Positions 14,012 through 62,701 of a stretch of DNA of 64,000 nt are shown one piece after another. This stretch comes from Campylobacterales bacterium. Lineage in GTDB: Bacteria > Campylobacterota > Campylobacteria > Campylobacterales > Sulfurimonadaceae. Position numbers and translations under genes: made by a program. Below the pieces are notes generated by a model that had not been told where the DNA came from, ran no database searches, and saw nothing but the letters and a program-made list of their open reading frames with translations. The stretch covers positions 62,001 to 126,000 of the forward strand of contig JAFGVE010000027.1 of the NCBI GenBank assembly GCA_016938175.1. Direction: 5' to 3'. How positions within the stretch are numbered: position 1 is the stretch's first letter; each line of letters starts with the position of its first letter.

Positions 14012-14099
14012 TGGTGGACAATGAGGGATTCGAACCCTCGATAGGTTGCCCTATACTCGCGTTCCAGGCGAGCGCCTTCGACCACTCGGCCAACTGTCC
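14012..14099 (-). tRNA. tRNA-Ser (anticodon GGA)
   Basis: An 88-base cloverleaf reads on the minus strand. The 7-bp acceptor stem pairs GGACAGT with ATTGTCC (one G-U pair). The D-arm sequence is GGCCGAGTGGTCGAAGGC. The anticodon stem CTCGC/GCGAG encloses CTGGAAC with anticodon GGA. A long class II variable arm and a T-arm with GGTTCGAATCC follow. The 3' CCA is encoded. The discriminator base is A rather than the G usual in E. coli serine tRNAs. Confidence 0.95.
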
Positions 14100-17826: not shown

Positions 17827-19851
17827 ATGAAAAGTTTTACAAGAGGTCATCTCTATATAATCGGTATCATTGTTTTGGTATGGATACTCATGGAATCTGT
17901 TTTTTATGGCATTGCTAAGGATGGGCAGAACGAGTATGAAAAAAATCTTATAGAACAGGCGAACTATTACTACAAAGATATAGAGGGCAAATGGAAGTGG
18001 AACTTAGATGTTGATGGAATTTATGTACTCAAAGATAACATAGGCAAGACACCCTTTGCCAAAGAGAAGATTATTGAAACTGAGATTGGTGAGATGAAGC
18101 GTCTTTCACCAACAAGTATGGTACATCTCTTTAGTCAACATACACACAAACAATTTTTAAAATATGCCGTTATTAGTAACAACCCTGTAGATGAGATAAA
18201 TAAAGCTGATAAATTTTATGCAGAAGCACTAAAAAGCTTTGAAAAATCAAAAAGTAACGAAGCAATTTATGAGATAGACAGTGCTACACAAAAACTATAT
18301 TACGTCAAACCATTGTACCTGACAAAACAGTGTATGGAGTGCCATAAACGTAAAGAAGACACTTTAGGCAGTTTAAGAGGTGGTATTACTATAGACTTGG
18401 ATGCTAGGTTTATTCTTGAGAGGACAGAAAAAATTTGGAATAACTTTGTTTTTGTTAGTCTCCTTGCTACCTTTTTTGTTGTGTTTGTTATCTACTTTAT
18501 TATGAATATCAGTAAACAAAAATTGTACTATTTGTATGAAAATATAGCTTTAGCAAACTCTCTTAAAGAGAAGGTGACAAAACTCAATAAAGTACTTGTG
18601 GCATCCGGACTGGGGTATTGGGAATGGAATTTAGTTACAGGTGAGCATAGCGTAGATGAGCAGTGGTTGCATATGCTTGGTCTTAACAGAGATGATATGA
18701 AAAAAGAGTCTTGTGACTGGAGTGAGAGAATAGAACCTGAAGATGCTAAGAGAATTATGCCTATAATTGATGAGGCTATAGAGAAAAAAAATCCTTACGT
18801 AGTAGAATTTCGTATGAAGCATGCTTTGGGACATTATATTTGGATACAAGGTTCCGGTGGGGTGACAGATGTGGATGAAAATGGTAAAGCAATTAAGCTT
18901 TCAGGCACGCATCAAGACATTACAAACAGAAAACTTTTAGAACTAGAGCAGCAAAACAATACGGGTTATTTAAATACGCTTTTTGAAAAAAATCCCAATA
19001 TTATTATTGTAACAGATGGAGTGGAGATAGTTAAGGCCAATGATGCATTCTTTAGGTTTTTTGATCAGTATGACTCTTTAAACTCCTTTAAGCAGGAACA
19101 TAAATGTATTTGTGAGTTTTTTGAAGGTGGAGATGATAGCGCTTTCATAACAAGCGAGCCACATCAATGGGTTGAAGAGGTATTTAACTCTCCTGAACCA
19201 ATAGCAAAAATTGTTTATAAAAAAGAGGAGTATTATTTTGCTGTACATGCAAAAAAAGTATATGAAAATGGTCTTTTAAACATCATCGTTACGTTTAACA
19301 ATATTACAGATATTTACGGTCTGCGTAAACGTTTTGAAGAGCTCTCTATTGTTGATGAGTTGACAAAAGTTTATAACAGACGCCATTTTAATGAGATTTT
19401 TAAAGAGGAGCGCAACCGTGCTATACGCGAAGCGCATAGTTTTTGTCTGGCAATTATAGATATAGACAATTTTAAACTTTATAACGACACTTATGGGCAT
19501 GATGCAGGCGATAATGTTTTAGCTGCTTTTGCCCGTGAAGCAAATGCTATGACAAAGAGATCAAATGAATTCTTCTTTAGACTTGGAGGCGAGGAGTTTG
19601 GCGTTGTATTTTGTCTGAAAACGCAAGAGGAAGCTATTGATTATCTGGAGAGCATTATGGAAGCGACAAGAGCTCTAAATATAACGCATTCGCATAATCC
19701 GCCAACGTATAAATTTACTATCTCTATAGGTTTAGCATATGTTGAAGCTGGTAAAGAGTTGGAACTTACGAGTATCTATAAAGCAGCAGATGAAGCACTC
19801 TATCTAGCGAAGAAAAATGGACGTAACAGAATAGAGGTTAATACTCTTTAA
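17827..19851 (+). CDS. Membrane diguanylate cyclase with periplasmic haem-type sensor and PAS domains
   Basis: About 674 residues from ATG 17827. A membrane helix (about 8-30) is followed by a periplasmic DUF3365/Tll0287-like domain carrying the c-type haem motif CMECH (Cys169-His173), a second helix (about 205-228), two PAS-type domains (about 250-370 and 380-495) and a C-terminal GGDEF domain (about 505-674). The signature GGEEF is intact, so it should make c-di-GMP. A covalently bound haem in the periplasmic domain could sense redox state, NO or oxygen. Its stop codon overlaps the convergent Cys-rich gene by 4 bases. Confidence 0.87.
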   Translation: MKSFTRGHLYIIGIIVLVWILMESVFYGIAKDGQNEYEKNLIEQANYYYKDIEGKWKWNLDVDGIYVLKDNIGKTPFAKEKIIETEIGEMKRLSPTSMVHLFSQHTHKQFLKYAVISNNPVDEINKADKFYAEALKSFEKSKSNEAIYEIDSATQKLYYVKPLYLTKQCMECHKRKEDTLGSLRGGITIDLDARFILERTEKIWNNFVFVSLLATFFVVFVIYFIMNISKQKLYYLYENIALANSLKEKVTKLNKVLVASGLGYWEWNLVTGEHSVDEQWLHMLGLNRDDMKKESCDWSERIEPEDAKRIMPIIDEAIEKKNPYVVEFRMKHALGHYIWIQGSGGVTDVDENGKAIKLSGTHQDITNRKLLELEQQNNTGYLNTLFEKNPNIIIVTDGVEIVKANDAFFRFFDQYDSLNSFKQEHKCICEFFEGGDDSAFITSEPHQWVEEVFNSPEPIAKIVYKKEEYYFAVHAKKVYENGLLNIIVTFNNITDIYGLRKRFEELSIVDELTKVYNRRHFNEIFKEERNRAIREAHSFCLAIIDIDNFKLYNDTYGHDAGDNVLAAFAREANAMTKRSNEFFFRLGGEEFGVVFCLKTQEEAIDYLESIMEATRALNITHSHNPPTYKFTISIGLAYVEAGKELELTSIYKAADEALYLAKKNGRNRIEVNTL

Positions 19852-20276
19852 CCGCAGTTACAATCCTTCATGGCATCTCTCCATTCATAAGTAAAGTTTT
19901 TATCTATAAATTTTGTGTGGTGAGGGATAGTACACTTTGTACAGTCTTGATGCATCGCATCCCCATATGTTGCAACGCTTCCCTCTTTGGCATCTATAGA
20001 GCAGTAGCTGTAGAGTGTCTTTCCTTTATTTTGAGTAATTCCTTTGTCATTAAAACGGAAGTGAGGACAGGCACAAAGATAGCAATTAAGCTTTTTTATA
20101 TCGTGACATTTTTTTTTCTCTTGGTATAAAAGGCAGAAGTTCGGCTCTTTTTCTACCATATTATCAAAATCAAAATACTCAATTATCTCTTCTTGCGTGT
20201 AGCCTTTTACCAAAAGCTTTTCGACTATTGCTTTATGTTTTGTAGCAAATACTTCGTACCACTCTTCATAGGTCAT
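19848..20276 (-). CDS. Cysteine-rich protein of unknown function
   Basis: 142 residues with no signal peptide. Eleven cysteines occur mostly in clusters: CYLCACPHF, CTKCTIPHH and a terminal CNCG. Such spacing suggests a metal or Fe-S site. The N-terminal third is helical (YEEWYEVFATKHKAIVEKLL). I do not know the family's function. Its ATG overlaps the stop of the upstream membrane-protein gene (ATGA), and that gene follows a TonB receptor, so it may belong to a metal-uptake or metal-handling group (inference). Confidence 0.75.
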   Translation of the reverse strand: MTYEEWYEVFATKHKAIVEKLLVKGYTQEEIIEYFDFDNMVEKEPNFCLLYQEKKKCHDIKKLNCYLCACPHFRFNDKGITQNKGKTLYSYCSIDAKEGSVATYGDAMHQDCTKCTIPHHTKFIDKNFTYEWRDAMKDCNCG

Positions 20277-20848
20277 GTTTTGTCCTCAAAAGATTTTAAA
20301 AGTGCTCTAATGATGACTAGCTCTACTAAAAAAAGCAAAAAATGTAAGAGATAGACTTGCTCTTGTTTGTCATAAATAGAGAAAAAATATTCTAAAGATT
20401 CATAAAATATATAAGCGATAAACATTCCTAGCAGATACCCTTTTTGTTTAGCCACATCTACGAACTCTAAAGCCTTCGCCTTACGCAAAAAGAGTGTCTC
20501 TGCACGGATGAGGTAGGAGCCAAAACTAAAGGTTAGTTGGTACCCTATATAAAATATAAGTGCTGTTATGTAAGAGTAGGAGAAGAGTAGAAAGTAACTG
20601 AGTAAAAACAGTAGTATCACTTCTACGAAAAGCGATATTTTAAAAAAGTAATTAATGGTCAAAATCTTAGAGTAGAATTTTGCTAAAAGTAGCATTGCAA
20701 CTGCTAAAGCTATACCACCAATACTGTATATTGATGGCATTAGAGGGGTGTAGAGAATAAAGATACTCCCAACACTTGCTCCAAGAAAAGTAGAGTTTAA
20801 AAACTTATAGTTAATAAACTCACGTATGTTTAGCTCTTTTTTTTGCAT
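20273..20848 (-). CDS. Integral membrane protein of unknown function
   Basis: 191 residues with about five or six hydrophobic helices. The start (NYKFLNSTFLGASVGSIFILY) looks like the first helix of an MFS transporter, but the protein is only half that length. It lies 7 bases after the TonB receptor gene and overlaps the Cys-rich gene by 4 bases, which marks an operon. It could be the inner membrane step for the substrate brought in by the receptor; no family motif proves this. Confidence 0.7.
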   Translation of the reverse strand: MQKKELNIREFINYKFLNSTFLGASVGSIFILYTPLMPSIYSIGGIALAVAMLLLAKFYSKILTINYFFKISLFVEVILLFLLSYFLLFSYSYITALIFYIGYQLTFSFGSYLIRAETLFLRKAKALEFVDVAKQKGYLLGMFIAYIFYESLEYFFSIYDKQEQVYLLHFLLFLVELVIIRALLKSFEDKT

Positions 20849-20855
20849 TGTCTAC

Positions 20856-22808
20856 TTAGTATTTTAGTTTTATCCCTGCATATCCAGTTGTAACATAGTT
20901 AATCGGATAGATTGCATCGTCCCTTACCCAAATACCGTTACTTTGGTTAAAGATGTTATTAATTCTAGCAAAAACTTCCCAACCAGCTTGTGCATAGGTA
21001 AATGCTAAGTCAGTTGAGTAGAAGGGATCTTGTTTTTGAGAAAAACTGTTATGAAAATCCTCTGAAGCATAAGCCTCTGAACGATAAACTTGAATGAGTG
21101 ATAGAGTTGTGGCTTCATTTGGAAGGTAGTTGACTCTTGCTTTAATTGTGTGGTCGGATACTCCAGGAAGTTTGTTCCCTGAGAAATCTTCACCATTTTC
21201 AATCTCTTCATCAATGATTGCTTGTACATAGTTATAGTTTAGAGCTATGTTGAGGTTTTGGTTAATGAGATATTTGTCATACAAATCTAGGCCATATTTA
21301 TGAGATTTGTCTATGTTAGTATTTTTAGAGTTTACATAAGTAGGGTCAGCATAGTAATAAATCTCATCATTAAGAGATACATAATAGAGAGAGAGTTTTA
21401 ACTTGTTAGATGCTTGAATATTTGAGTAGCCTAGTGTAAAGTTGTCACTTTGTGATGGCTTTACATATCCAAGGTAGGCGTTACTACCAAAATAACTAAA
21501 CATTCTATCAAGTGATGCTGTCTGATACCCATGTGAATAGTTTGCAAAGAGTGAGCTACTTTGACTCAGAAGATAGTTAGCTCCCAGTTCAATACCGTGT
21601 AAATCTTCACTTTCATTCTCTCCAGCAGATTCATCAAACTTCATTTTTTCAAATCTATACCCTGCTTTGAGTGTCAGTTCATCAAGATAAAACTCAGACA
21701 TAAAATAGAGCGCTGTGTTCTCTTTTTTGAGTAAAAGGTCTGCTCCGTAGTTGTTCTTATAGTCTAAGTCTGCATAAAACCCATCAACTCCGGCTTTGAG
21801 AGCAAAGATATTATCTGTATAATTGAGATAAGTATTAAACTCTTTATAGTTATAGAGTGTTTTTGCATCTGAGAAGTAAGCTGGAATAGAGTAGAGTGAT
21901 TTTTTAGACTCCTCAGAGACTTCTACGTGAAAAGAGAGTTCAGTGTTCACTTTATAATTAAGCCCAGCATTAAGAACATTTGAGTCAAATTTTTGTTTTG
22001 CATAATTACTTGGTCCATAAAGACCTGAGCCAATCTGTGTGGGATCTTCTTTGTACTCACTCTCTGTCATTGTTCCTGCATAAATAACATCAGTTTTTGT
22101 AAACATAGCTCCAGCTAGAAGCTCTAAATCACTGTTAATGTTGTATGCAAGGTTTATGGCAGCTGTTCCTAAAGAGTTTGTATCTTTATTCCCCTCACTG
22201 TCTATATTTCTAATGCCATCACTGCTTTGCACCTCTCCACTTGCATTGAGACTAAATTTAGAGTCACTGTGACCAAGATAAAAAGAGGCGTCATTTAGGT
22301 TGTAGTTACCCTTATAAAAAGCAAGCTCTTTAGTGTTACTCTCTTTTGTTGTTATGTTAATAACACCTGCGTTAGCACCATCTCCACTTGTTACGATACC
22401 GCTTGATTTAACAATCTCTATCTTTTCAATTGTAGATGGAGCAATGGAGGCAAGTAGTTGCGAAACCATATCGACATTGTTCATACGTCTCCCATTGAGA
22501 GTTACAACAATATTTTGATACCCATCACCAATACCATAACCATGTAGGTCTAGTTTTTGTGAGTATGGGTTTCCATAAGCACTTGTTGCAAAGAGTGAAG
22601 TCTCTGTCGCTAAGAACTCATATATGGTCTGCACATGCGCTTTTTGGATATCTTCTGCAGTGTATATCTCAACGGCATCAGTAGCACGAAGCTCATCTGT
22701 TTTAATTGCTGTTGAAGTTATCTCTATTGGTTTAAGTGTATGCTCTGCTGCATTAGCTTGGCTCAAAAGAGCAACTGTAAGTAGTGATAATTGTAGTGTT
22801 TTTTTCAT
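20856..22808 (-). CDS. TonB-dependent outer membrane receptor
   Basis: 650 residues. A signal peptide (1-20) is followed by a plug domain (VEIYTAEDIQKAHVQTIYEF, NGRRMNNVDMVSQLLASI, VKSSGIVTSGDGANAGVINI) and a 22-strand-type beta-barrel that ends in GYAGIKLKY with a terminal aromatic residue. Such receptors import iron chelates, cobalamin or metal complexes, powered by TonB-ExbBD. The substrate is not evident. The leader region contains a perfect 11-bp inverted repeat that overlaps the ribosome site and a short ORF ending inside it. The genes after it encode a membrane protein and a Cys-rich protein. Confidence 0.88.
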   Translation of the reverse strand: MKKTLQLSLLTVALLSQANAAEHTLKPIEITSTAIKTDELRATDAVEIYTAEDIQKAHVQTIYEFLATETSLFATSAYGNPYSQKLDLHGYGIGDGYQNIVVTLNGRRMNNVDMVSQLLASIAPSTIEKIEIVKSSGIVTSGDGANAGVINITTKESNTKELAFYKGNYNLNDASFYLGHSDSKFSLNASGEVQSSDGIRNIDSEGNKDTNSLGTAAINLAYNINSDLELLAGAMFTKTDVIYAGTMTESEYKEDPTQIGSGLYGPSNYAKQKFDSNVLNAGLNYKVNTELSFHVEVSEESKKSLYSIPAYFSDAKTLYNYKEFNTYLNYTDNIFALKAGVDGFYADLDYKNNYGADLLLKKENTALYFMSEFYLDELTLKAGYRFEKMKFDESAGENESEDLHGIELGANYLLSQSSSLFANYSHGYQTASLDRMFSYFGSNAYLGYVKPSQSDNFTLGYSNIQASNKLKLSLYYVSLNDEIYYYADPTYVNSKNTNIDKSHKYGLDLYDKYLINQNLNIALNYNYVQAIIDEEIENGEDFSGNKLPGVSDHTIKARVNYLPNEATTLSLIQVYRSEAYASEDFHNSFSQKQDPFYSTDLAFTYAQAGWEVFARINNIFNQSNGIWVRDDAIYPINYVTTGYAGIKLKY

Positions 22809-22815
22809 GTTTTTC

Positions 22816-22868
22816 CTTAATAAAACGTTTGTGTGTGTAGTGATTTTTATTGTGAGTGTTTTATTAAG
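22816..22868 (-). promoter_or_regulatory. Perfect 11-bp inverted repeat overlapping the TonB receptor ribosome site
   Basis: On the minus strand CTTAATAAAAC (22868-22858) and GTTTTATTAAG (22826-22816) are perfect complements with a 31-base loop. The downstream arm runs into the AAGGA that should bind the ribosome 6 bases before the receptor ATG. The upstream arm contains the TAA stop of the small ORF at 22864-23019. It could be an RNA switch or a repressor operator. Confidence 0.5.
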
Positions 22869-23019
22869 ATTGTGGAGGTGAAGCTATTTTGATTGTGAGG
22901 GGTTTTCCGTTGAGTGTGCGAAGAGAAGCACCAAGCGCTACAATTTTTAGTTGCGATATGTAGGCTTGGATTGCTGCTAGTGTAAAGTAGTTTCTACCGA
23001 AACCCTTAGGTGTGTGCAT
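22864..23019 (-). CDS. Candidate 51-residue leader ORF before the TonB receptor
   Basis: An ATG at 23019 with GAGAAG four bases upstream opens 51 codons ending in TAA at 22864-22866. The peptide starts MHTPKGFGRNYF and ends IKIASPPQS; it has no signal peptide or recognised domain. It lies between carbonic anhydrase (47 bases after its stop) and the TonB receptor (55 bases before its ATG), all on the minus strand. Its stop codon sits inside the first arm of an inverted repeat that can hide the receptor's ribosome site, so it may act as a translated leader. Whether it is really expressed is uncertain. Confidence 0.35.
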   Translation of the reverse strand: MHTPKGFGRNYFTLAAIQAYISQLKIVALGASLRTLNGKPLTIKIASPPQS

Positions 23020-23066
23020 AGCTTCTCTTTAAATTTTCTGCAATTGTAGCAAAAAAATCTTAGAGA

Positions 23067-61855: not shown

Positions 61856-62701
61856 TTAGTGTACCTTTGTAGCAACTTCTAGATTTAAAGATTTTATCAT
61901 ATCAAGGTCTTTATTCATAGCTCTTCCACTTGTTGTTAAGTAGTTTCCTATGACGATTGAGTTCGCTCCATGCTCAAAAATTTCATTTTGACGTTCGCCA
62001 AACATTAATTCACGTCCACCAGCAACCATAATGCGCTGTGCATTTGGAAGTCTCTTACGAGTAAGTTCTATTAAGGAAAAAGCTTCATCGACAGTGAGAG
62101 AATTAGGTTCTAGCTCAAGCGCTTCATTATGGTGATAAAAGTTAATAGGTACTGATGTAGGATTGAGTGAAGCTAAAGAGGCAAGCATGCTCTCTCTGTC
62201 CTCTTGAGACTCACCGAGTCCAAAGATGCCACCGCTTATTAGAACGAGTCCAGCCTTATTTACATTTTGACACGTCTCATAACGCTCTGACCAAGGGTGT
62301 GTAGTACAAATTTTAGGGTAGAAAGCTTCACTTGTTTCAAGATTATGGTTATAGGCTTTAATACCTGCCTCTTTTAGGACTAGAAGTTGTTCCACACTGG
62401 CTGTACCATTACAGGCAATAAGACGAAGTTCAGGTGCAACACTCTGTACTTCTTTTGCAACTCTACACACAAAATCAAGCGTTTTGTCATTAAGACCTTT
62501 ATCTGCTGTTACTAAACAAAACCCTAAAGCTCCATTATCTCTTGCGTTAATTGCTTCTTTTTTAATGAGTTCCATATCTTTTTGTTTATAGCGTTCAATG
62601 TCTGCTTTATAGCGTACGCTTTGCGAACAGAATTTACAATCTTCTAAACATGTTCCACTATTAATGTTACAGATGGAACACAGAAATATTTTTTCACTCA
62701 T
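61856..62701 (-). CDS. bioB: Biotin synthase
   Basis: 281 residues, short for BioB but typical of the group. CSICNINSGTCLEDCKFCSQS contains the radical SAM cluster cysteines (C-x3-C-x2-C in CLEDCKFC), followed by YNHNLETSEAFYPKIC, SGGIFGLGES and VAGGRELMFGE. It inserts sulfur into dethiobiotin, using an auxiliary [2Fe-2S] cluster as donor. The start overlaps the phosphodiesterase stop by 4 bases. Confidence 0.93.
   Translation of the reverse strand: MSEKIFLCSICNINSGTCLEDCKFCSQSVRYKADIERYKQKDMELIKKEAINARDNGALGFCLVTADKGLNDKTLDFVCRVAKEVQSVAPELRLIACNGTASVEQLLVLKEAGIKAYNHNLETSEAFYPKICTTHPWSERYETCQNVNKAGLVLISGGIFGLGESQEDRESMLASLASLNPTSVPINFYHHNEALELEPNSLTVDEAFSLIELTRKRLPNAQRIMVAGGRELMFGERQNEIFEHGANSIVIGNYLTTSGRAMNKDLDMIKSLNLEVATKVH

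Follow-up and report, generated by a model that had tools for sequence, protein, structure and literature searches.

What might a 51-codon open reading frame (ORF) be doing immediately upstream of a gene for a TonB-dependent receptor? The question arises in the window, as we call the whole 64,000-nucleotide (nt) stretch analyzed here (positions 62,001 to 126,000 of contig JAFGVE010000027.1, assembly GCA_016938175.1, Campylobacterales bacterium), where this upstream ORF (uORF) lies on the minus strand between a carbonic-anhydrase gene and the TonB-receptor gene. An initial annotation, made from the sequence alone, had placed the TAA stop codon of the 51-codon ORF inside the first arm of a perfect 11-base-pair (bp) inverted repeat whose second arm merges with the AAGGA ribosome site of the receptor gene. 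The coordinates bear this out: the arms lie at 22868-22858 and 22826-22816, separated by 31 nt, the uORF TAA falls within the first arm, and the second runs into AAGGA at 22818-22814. That observation is confirmed, and the accompanying interpretation, control of the receptor through a leader peptide, is supported by every one of its proposed checks that was run, with one reversal described below. Comparison among relatives establishes a conserved peptide, a covarying hairpin, a hairpin arm tied to a Pro-Pro pair in the peptide, and a regulon of cobalamin (B12) genes and metE. We think it probable that the locus is a cis-acting arrest-peptide uORF switch, in which stalling at Pro-Pro frees the ribosome site of the receptor gene and is relieved, most plausibly, by cobalamin.

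A six-frame search with the uORF peptide returned matches in 61 of 119 relatives, and a profile search (E<=1e-8) found this short form of ~50 amino acids in 63 of 135 genomes of the genus, a count that leaves out three further genomes matching via a longer form. In 34 aligned short forms, invariant or near-invariant residues comprise P-K-G-F-G-K-x-Y-F-x-L-A-A-I-Q-A, S, K-I, T-L-x-G-K-P-L, and S-P-P; Ser-Pro-Pro is present in all 34, and exactly two residues separate Pro-Pro from the stop (S-P-P-x-x-stop) except at a truncated locus, L059. Third codon positions are nonetheless free at invariant residues: Ala16 is encoded by four codons, Ser48 by three, and each Pro by four. Because third positions vary so freely, selection acts on the peptide and not on an RNA aptamer, and an aptamer hidden in the ORF was rejected on this ground for both the short forms and the metE-associated forms described below. 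The comparison thus identifies the 51-codon ORF, whose conservation the initial annotation had proposed to check, as a conserved small protein, with amino acid-level conservation directly upstream of a putative regulated gene, as in arrest-peptide uORFs. The window uORF had no Pfam match, including DUF2946 (hmmscan, E<=1), and contains no cysteine, nor is any cysteine invariant among the 34 short forms. Judged by hydropathy alone, its N terminus is weakly hydrophobic (maximum 12-residue Kyte-Doolittle mean of 1.25, versus 1.9 for the receptor signal peptide). Small ORFs of this family would be overlooked in gene annotation or labeled hypothetical.

The inverted repeat folds well in silico. The window hairpin has a predicted energy of -7.8 kcal/mol, whereas shuffled sequences averaged -1.6 (z -4.4) and none of 200 was as stable; it is both the minimum-energy and the centroid fold. 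Within the complete predicted leader RNA, arm pairing has a probability of 0.96-1.0, leaving the AAG of the ribosome site ~1% unpaired. Raw spacers gave the impression that the hairpin was not conserved, an impression overturned when arms were drawn from fixed places, around the uORF stop and upstream of the receptor start. Across 56 distinct loci, own arms averaged -6.63 kcal/mol versus -4.28 +/- 0.25 for swapped arms, and 0 of 20,000 permutations reached the own value. When the 5' window was slid along the short forms, the signal lay within stop-18..+24, peaked at stop-12..+12 (z -10.7), and was about zero at stop-24 and from stop+6 onward. In a fixed register that required no fitting (TAA versus TTAAGG, 24 loci), 116 of 168 variable cells were paired, compared with 82.7 +/- 5.5 for reshuffled partners (0 of 10,000 as high) and 71-89 for slid registers. 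Arm pairs include CTTAATAAAAC/GTTTTATTAAG in the window as well as CTTAATCTTT/AAAGATTAAG, CTTAAATATTTT/AAAATATTTAAG, and CTTAATATTAC/GTAATATTAAG. The stem therefore varies with compensation in both tests, the pattern that the initial annotation had suggested looking for, and by these comparisons a hairpin over the ribosome site is conserved and covarying.

The N-terminal half of the short form leads to longer relatives of 107-120 amino acids, and a long-form profile matched 184 of 397 Campylobacterota genomes in 41 of 68 genera. Among 80 long-form loci from named genomes (L101-L180), which span Sulfurimonas, Sulfurovum, Sulfurospirillum, Arcobacter, Aliarcobacter, Poseidonibacter, and Halarcobacter records and whose downstream genes were called by BLAST, metE lies directly 3' of the uORF in 79, and L142 has a metE-like start. 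Other long forms precede TonB receptors. Long forms carry KPCHCN, its C-x-C invariant in 70 of 70, together with further cysteines; near the C terminus follows ..IPRCPYYTTYFAFRRTGVHPP in metE forms or ..NNAISPP in receptor forms. The C-terminal Pro-Pro of metE forms is preceded by His in 71 of 73 (HPP) and by Ala in the other two (APP), and both KPCHCN and the C-terminal block of the metE forms are conserved with free third positions. The genome from which the window comes carries both kinds, the receptor being preceded by a short form and metE by a long one (L069, L074). Short form and long relatives make up one phylum-wide leader-peptide family that appears to switch B12-uptake and methionine-synthesis genes. 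On this comparative evidence the system is not peculiar to one receptor, since across the phylum uORFs of this family lie before both metE and B12-uptake receptors.

The metE forms allow two possible anchors of the hairpin to be told apart. Their stop codon lies anywhere from 9 to 48 nt 3' of Pro-Pro, so that Pro-Pro and stop are separable. In 73 metE loci, the own-versus-swapped signal was carried by windows starting from Pro-Pro-6 to +12 and peaked at Pro-Pro+0..+24 (z -7.5), while flanking windows were near zero. Among significant stems, short-form arms center on Pro-Pro+14 and metE-form arms on +14.2, and in the latter the spread is 2.2 nt about Pro-Pro versus 9.2 nt about the stop (n=16 loci). 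In toeprint geometry, a ribosome with the second Pro in its P site extends ~15 nt further, and a ribosome stalled there would thus cover the 5' arm. When this footprint was forced single-stranded in a folding model of the window leader, accessibility of the AAG of AAGGA rose from ~0.01 to 0.64-0.94. It is mainly because the arm follows Pro-Pro and the footprint frees AAGGA that we propose stalling at Pro-Pro over plain termination coupling.

The proposed switch would work as follows. A single transcript beginning 5' of the uORF would extend into the gene for the receptor. While translating the uORF, a ribosome would stall at Ser-Pro-Pro near the end of the peptide, its footprint covering the stop codon and the next few nucleotides, that is, the 5' arm; with this arm masked, the 3' arm and its AAGGA would be free, and the receptor would be translated (ON). 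Were stalling relieved, the ribosome would terminate and leave, the hairpin would close over AAGGA, and the receptor would be OFF. The bare, G-poor, C-containing spacer may also let Rho end transcription, and metE would be controlled by the same design. The signal would most likely be cobalamin sufficiency or its product, acting on the nascent peptide. Stalling itself, its ON direction, its relief by cobalamin, and the participation of Rho are what we infer from sequence comparison. Of the earlier interpretation, coupling through a leader peptide stands; the idea that stalling hides the ribosome site probably does not. In the longer relatives, the 5' arm follows Pro-Pro rather than the stop codon, so stalling most likely turns the gene ON, and what matters is probably a stall at the Pro-Pro codons rather than completion of the ORF.

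The transcript assumed here is consistent with the upstream sequence. A TA[TCA]AAT box lies 5' of the uORF in 50 of 58 loci, versus 18.9 expected from shuffles, and its median distance to the start codon is 29 nt; the uORF is therefore most likely the first on its transcript. A transcription start downstream of the first arm, which the initial annotation had named as fatal to its model, finds little encouragement, as this is the sole recurrent promoter-like box; a TA[TCA]AAT match also occurs in 19 of 58 spacers (3827 nt in total; no shuffle comparison for spacers). Since the gene upstream of the uORF varies between species, uORF and receptor constitute a separate unit.

We asked what signal such a switch might read. 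The first gene 3' of the short form is a TonB receptor in 55 of 60 loci, and a B12 transport or biosynthesis gene lies <=5.5 kb away in 43 of the 60, with most others ending at a contig edge. Genes behind the short-form receptors encode BtuF, BtuD, BtuC, CobT, and a CobU-type enzyme; the best or leading NCBIfam matches there are BtuF, BtuC, CobT, adenosylcobinamide kinase, CbiB, and CobD, some of them below curated cutoffs. The neighborhood of its relatives (BtuF/BtuD/BtuC/CobT) suggests that the window receptor may be BtuB-like. The receptor itself matched neither a BtuB model nor a solved BtuB, no family model assigns it a ligand, and its best NCBIfam and PDB matches are partial ones to PqqU/YncD. 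At the metE end of the family, within a common set of 200 genomes, a strong long-form match (E<=1e-9) occurred in 39 of 48 metE+metH+ genomes versus 0 of 75 metE+metH- genomes, a skew that a B12-dependent metE switch predicts, though relatedness between genomes is not removed from it.

A separate observation concerns the few loci where the downstream gene is of another kind. In L052, L059, L210, L226, and the near-identical L211, a porin-like outer membrane protein (~418 amino acids) replaces the TonB receptor 3' of the uORF. The L059 gene sits within a cobalamin operon, making it a candidate B12-related porin.

The cobalamin riboswitch RF00174 was found in 0 of 200 Campylobacterota genomes, while control genomes were positive in 8 of 14. 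Rfam scans covering the uORF region (E<=10), 13 relatives, and the entire window returned no credible riboswitch, in agreement with the earlier statement that this is not a known riboswitch, and a riboswitch at the locus was rejected. The sole Rfam match in the window at the gathering threshold is a tRNA-Ser (GGA) at 14012-14099 on the minus strand. Campylobacterota thus appear to be without the cobalamin riboswitch, which had left it an open question how B12 uptake and metE are adjusted to B12 supply; this family gives a concrete and testable answer. A broader proposal, possible in our view but held only tentatively, is that phylum-wide nascent peptides sense cobalamin or a direct readout of it in or at the mouth of the ribosome, replacing the riboswitch in Campylobacterota and jointly switching B12 uptake, salvage, and metE via Pro-Pro stalling that unmasks the ribosome site. 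The family itself would add a vitamin-linked signal to the few kinds of input that nascent chains are known to read and would reveal an arrest motif, SPP/HPP, that does not belong to the RAPP class; its >200 aligned sequences would form a natural set for asking how an exit-tunnel peptide senses its ligand. Searches of open-access papers turned up neither a metE or btuB leader peptide in Campylobacterota nor an account of this family, although an earlier report elsewhere is possible.

Several observations weigh against a cobalamin-relieved, hairpin-based switch. No BtuFCD genes lie alongside the window receptor, and a relative's BtuF used as a query found no match in the window's genome, an assembly that is 93.6% complete. 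The metE/metH contrast follows Campylobacter-like and Helicobacter-like family groups and hence does not represent 123 independent events, and weak, C-terminal-only matches are retained in 21 metE+metH- genomes. The short form, having no counterpart of the long-form KPCHCN block, may respond to a different signal. In single-locus shuffles, a stem reached p<=0.05 in 24 of 55 short forms and in only 16 of 73 metE forms, for which the weight rests on the cross-species test; the arm permutations, in turn, do not remove shared ancestry. About half of the short-form loci are without a long stem and some spacers exceed 100 nt, so sequestration may be one of two outputs.

The other candidate output is Rho-dependent termination. 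Excluding the ribosome site, uORF-receptor spacers contain 19.2% C and 1.6% G, versus 14.5% and 16.5% in matched stretches before other genes, and C>G stretches are typical of Rho-dependent terminators. A C>G stretch is part of the Rho termination at CruR (PMC9426467). This very G-poor, relatively C-rich composition, together with the retention of the uORF in loci without a long stem, is what would be expected if the system relied mainly on Rho-dependent attenuation, as CruR does, with the hairpin in a secondary role. We regard that as rather unlikely, though worth keeping in mind, as the stem is clearly selected in many loci and G-poor spacers could merely keep the hairpin loop unstructured; Rho termination and masking of the ribosome site may also act together. 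Plain translational coupling without stalling, with receptor output proportional to uORF translation, would account for the stop within the 5' arm in the window and the short forms. It seems improbable to us, given that it leaves unexplained both the invariant GFGKNYF..SPP over free codons and the fact that the arm follows Pro-Pro, not the stop, in metE forms. That the inverted repeat is instead a DNA operator bound by a repressor, an explanation the initial annotation had kept alive, is suggested by the presence of a perfect 11-bp palindrome close to the gene of a TonB receptor. It now has a negligible likelihood, because species differ in arm sequence yet retain the pairing; the arms also hold a fixed distance from Pro-Pro and from the ribosome site while the spacing between them varies.

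Other alternatives keep the arrest-peptide switch and change its signal. Methionine or S-adenosylmethionine status might be read in place of cobalamin: metE is the commonest downstream gene, B12 uptake also feeds methionine synthesis via MetH, the uORF tracks genomes with MetH, and C-terminal-only relatives persist before metE in genomes without it. We nevertheless find this unlikely, since the short-form operons combine B12 transport with cobinamide salvage, beyond what methionine supply needs, and the start codon is the sole Met codon of the uORF, which excludes simple Met-tRNA attenuation. A nascent chain sensing a metal (copper, cobalt, or zinc) would fit the invariant C-x-C in KPCHCN and further cysteines of the long forms, and copper is the metal sensed by CruR, upstream of a TonB receptor, and by CutF, upstream of a multicopper oxidase (PMC9426467, PMC9973294). 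Yet the short form in the window is without the KPCHCN block and without an invariant cysteine, and the downstream genes concern B12 and MetE, not copper, so we give metal sensing little credence. The arrest-peptide switch relieved by cobalamin is the reading that we prefer.

The modular makeup of the family offers further observations. Several Sulfurimonas metE uORFs (L153, L155-L158) retain only the C-terminal KPCHCN..HPP half. In a genus without metH (L253, L254), a reduced relative before metE keeps HCNCIFRRKTRLAL and a C-terminal (K/R)PP and drops the N-terminal module, which suggests two modules with separate inputs. The N-terminal module PKGFGRNYFTLAAIQ is common to metE-type uORFs and some BtuB-like signal peptides. 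In other families of the order (L236, L244, L251, L252, L255, L256), TonB receptors start with MKSPKGFKGKYFSLAAITATVATVTLQA-like signal peptides strikingly similar to the uORF N-terminal module MKLPKGFGKNYFTLRAITATVNQVTLNA; signal peptides are normally less conserved than these. The uORF may have descended from a duplicated receptor 5' end, or its N-terminal motif may itself be a sensor. In L238 (1098-3207, minus strand), a uORF-like N terminus shares the reading frame of the receptor and no stop codon separates the two, giving a 702-amino-acid open frame within which the receptor signal peptide begins internally.

Spacers and flanking genes also vary. In L045, L047, L053, L054, and L227, recurrent repeats (GTCATTC..GAATCTAG-like, and the complement) are inserted between uORF and receptor, lengthening the spacer to as much as 520 nt. 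Of the two genes that follow the receptor (Table 1), the one for the membrane protein is kept 3' of the receptor in L037, L049, and L063 and occurs together with CobT in L235, while relatives of the cysteine-rich protein adjoin cobalamin genes in L049 and L059.

Table 1. Features of the uORF-receptor locus, in window coordinates
Feature	Position	Strand	Basis or remark
Leader ORF (uORF), 51 codons, peptide MHTPKGFGRNYFTLAAIQAYISQLKIVALGASLRTLNGKPLTIKIASPPQS	22864..23019	minus	ATG 23019, TAA 22866-22864
Promoter-like -10 box TACAAT, 23 nt 5' of uORF ATG	23043..23048	minus	Sequence and recurrence in relatives
N-terminal module PKGFGRNYFTLAAIQ of uORF	22966..23010	minus	Alignments and neighbors
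Pro-Pro codons of invariant Ser-Pro-Pro, presumed stalling site	22873..22878	minus	Two codons 5' of stop
Hairpin 5' arm CTTAATAAAAC, holds stop codon	22858..22868	minus	Pro-Pro+10 to +20
Hairpin loop, 31 nt, C-rich, almost G-free; candidate Rho-loading stretch	22827..22857	minus	
Hairpin 3' arm GTTTTATTAAG, overlaps ribosome site	22816..22826	minus	
AAGGA ribosome-binding site of receptor gene	22814..22818	minus	5 nt 5' of ATG (22808)
TonB-dependent receptor, 650 amino acids, putative regulated gene	20856..22808	minus	PF00593 and PF07715
Membrane protein, 191 amino acids, same operon as receptor	20273..20848	minus	ORF
Cysteine-rich protein, 142 amino acids, same operon as receptor	19848..20276	minus	ORF; PF04071 subthreshold

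How does this family relate to systems already described? In other bacteria, the classical controller of btuB and metE-type genes is the cobalamin riboswitch RF00174, which differs in being an RNA aptamer and is found neither in the window nor in the 200 Campylobacterota genomes. In SecM-secA and in macrolide leaders such as ErmCL, a stalled ribosome masks a 5' arm and frees the downstream ribosome site. The switch proposed here would share that 5'-arm masking, whereas the signals in those systems are export force and macrolides and there is no sequence relation. Within the phylum, the LeuL, TrpL, and MetL leaders of Campylobacter jejuni are 20-28 amino acids long, carry runs of the regulated amino acid, and precede the leu, trp, and metBA operons (PMC3847290, PMC11955535); the window uORF resembles them as a leader ORF but is without such a codon run, and neither a Met run nor a run of any other single residue occurs in the uORF peptides.

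Closer parallels are found among peptides ending in Pro-Pro. RAPP/RGPP arrest peptides (ApdA, ApdP, and others) similarly carry Pro-Pro close to the C terminus of a small regulatory protein, and TonB receptors are among their downstream genes (PMC10951233, PMC12992588). The uORF family differs in having no RAPP/RGPP: in place of Arg-(Ala/Gly), the residue before Pro-Pro is Ser in every aligned short form and mostly His in the long forms. CruR (bp2923) of Bordetella pertussis resembles the window uORF in lying directly before a TonB receptor gene, bfrG, in its conserved C-terminal Pro-Pro, and in the C>G stretch downstream (PMC9426467). CruR, however, carries RAPP, a CxxC copper sensor, and DUF2946 and has a 162-nt spacer and demonstrated Rho termination, with no ribosome-site hairpin described as an output, whereas the family described here has SPP/HPP, a covarying hairpin, and B12/MetE genes. 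CutF-cutO of Rhodobacter capsulatus shares a proline-rich, stalling-like uORF C terminus and a stem-loop that hides the downstream ribosome site, and stalling is proposed to open that stem-loop (PMC9973294). CutF itself is an exported, DUF2946-like protein that senses copper and carries a Sec signal and CxxxC; the 51-residue uORF has no Pfam match and, being free of cysteine, neither CxxC nor CxxxC, its long relatives having the C-x-C of KPCHCN instead. Membership in the DUF2946/CruR/CutF group was rejected, as hmmscan found no DUF2946 in the window uORF or, at E<=10, in one short and four long relatives. With neither DUF2946 nor RAPP, the uORF family is by its sequences distinct from CutF-cutO and CruR-bfrG, which are the nearest mechanisms to the switch proposed here.

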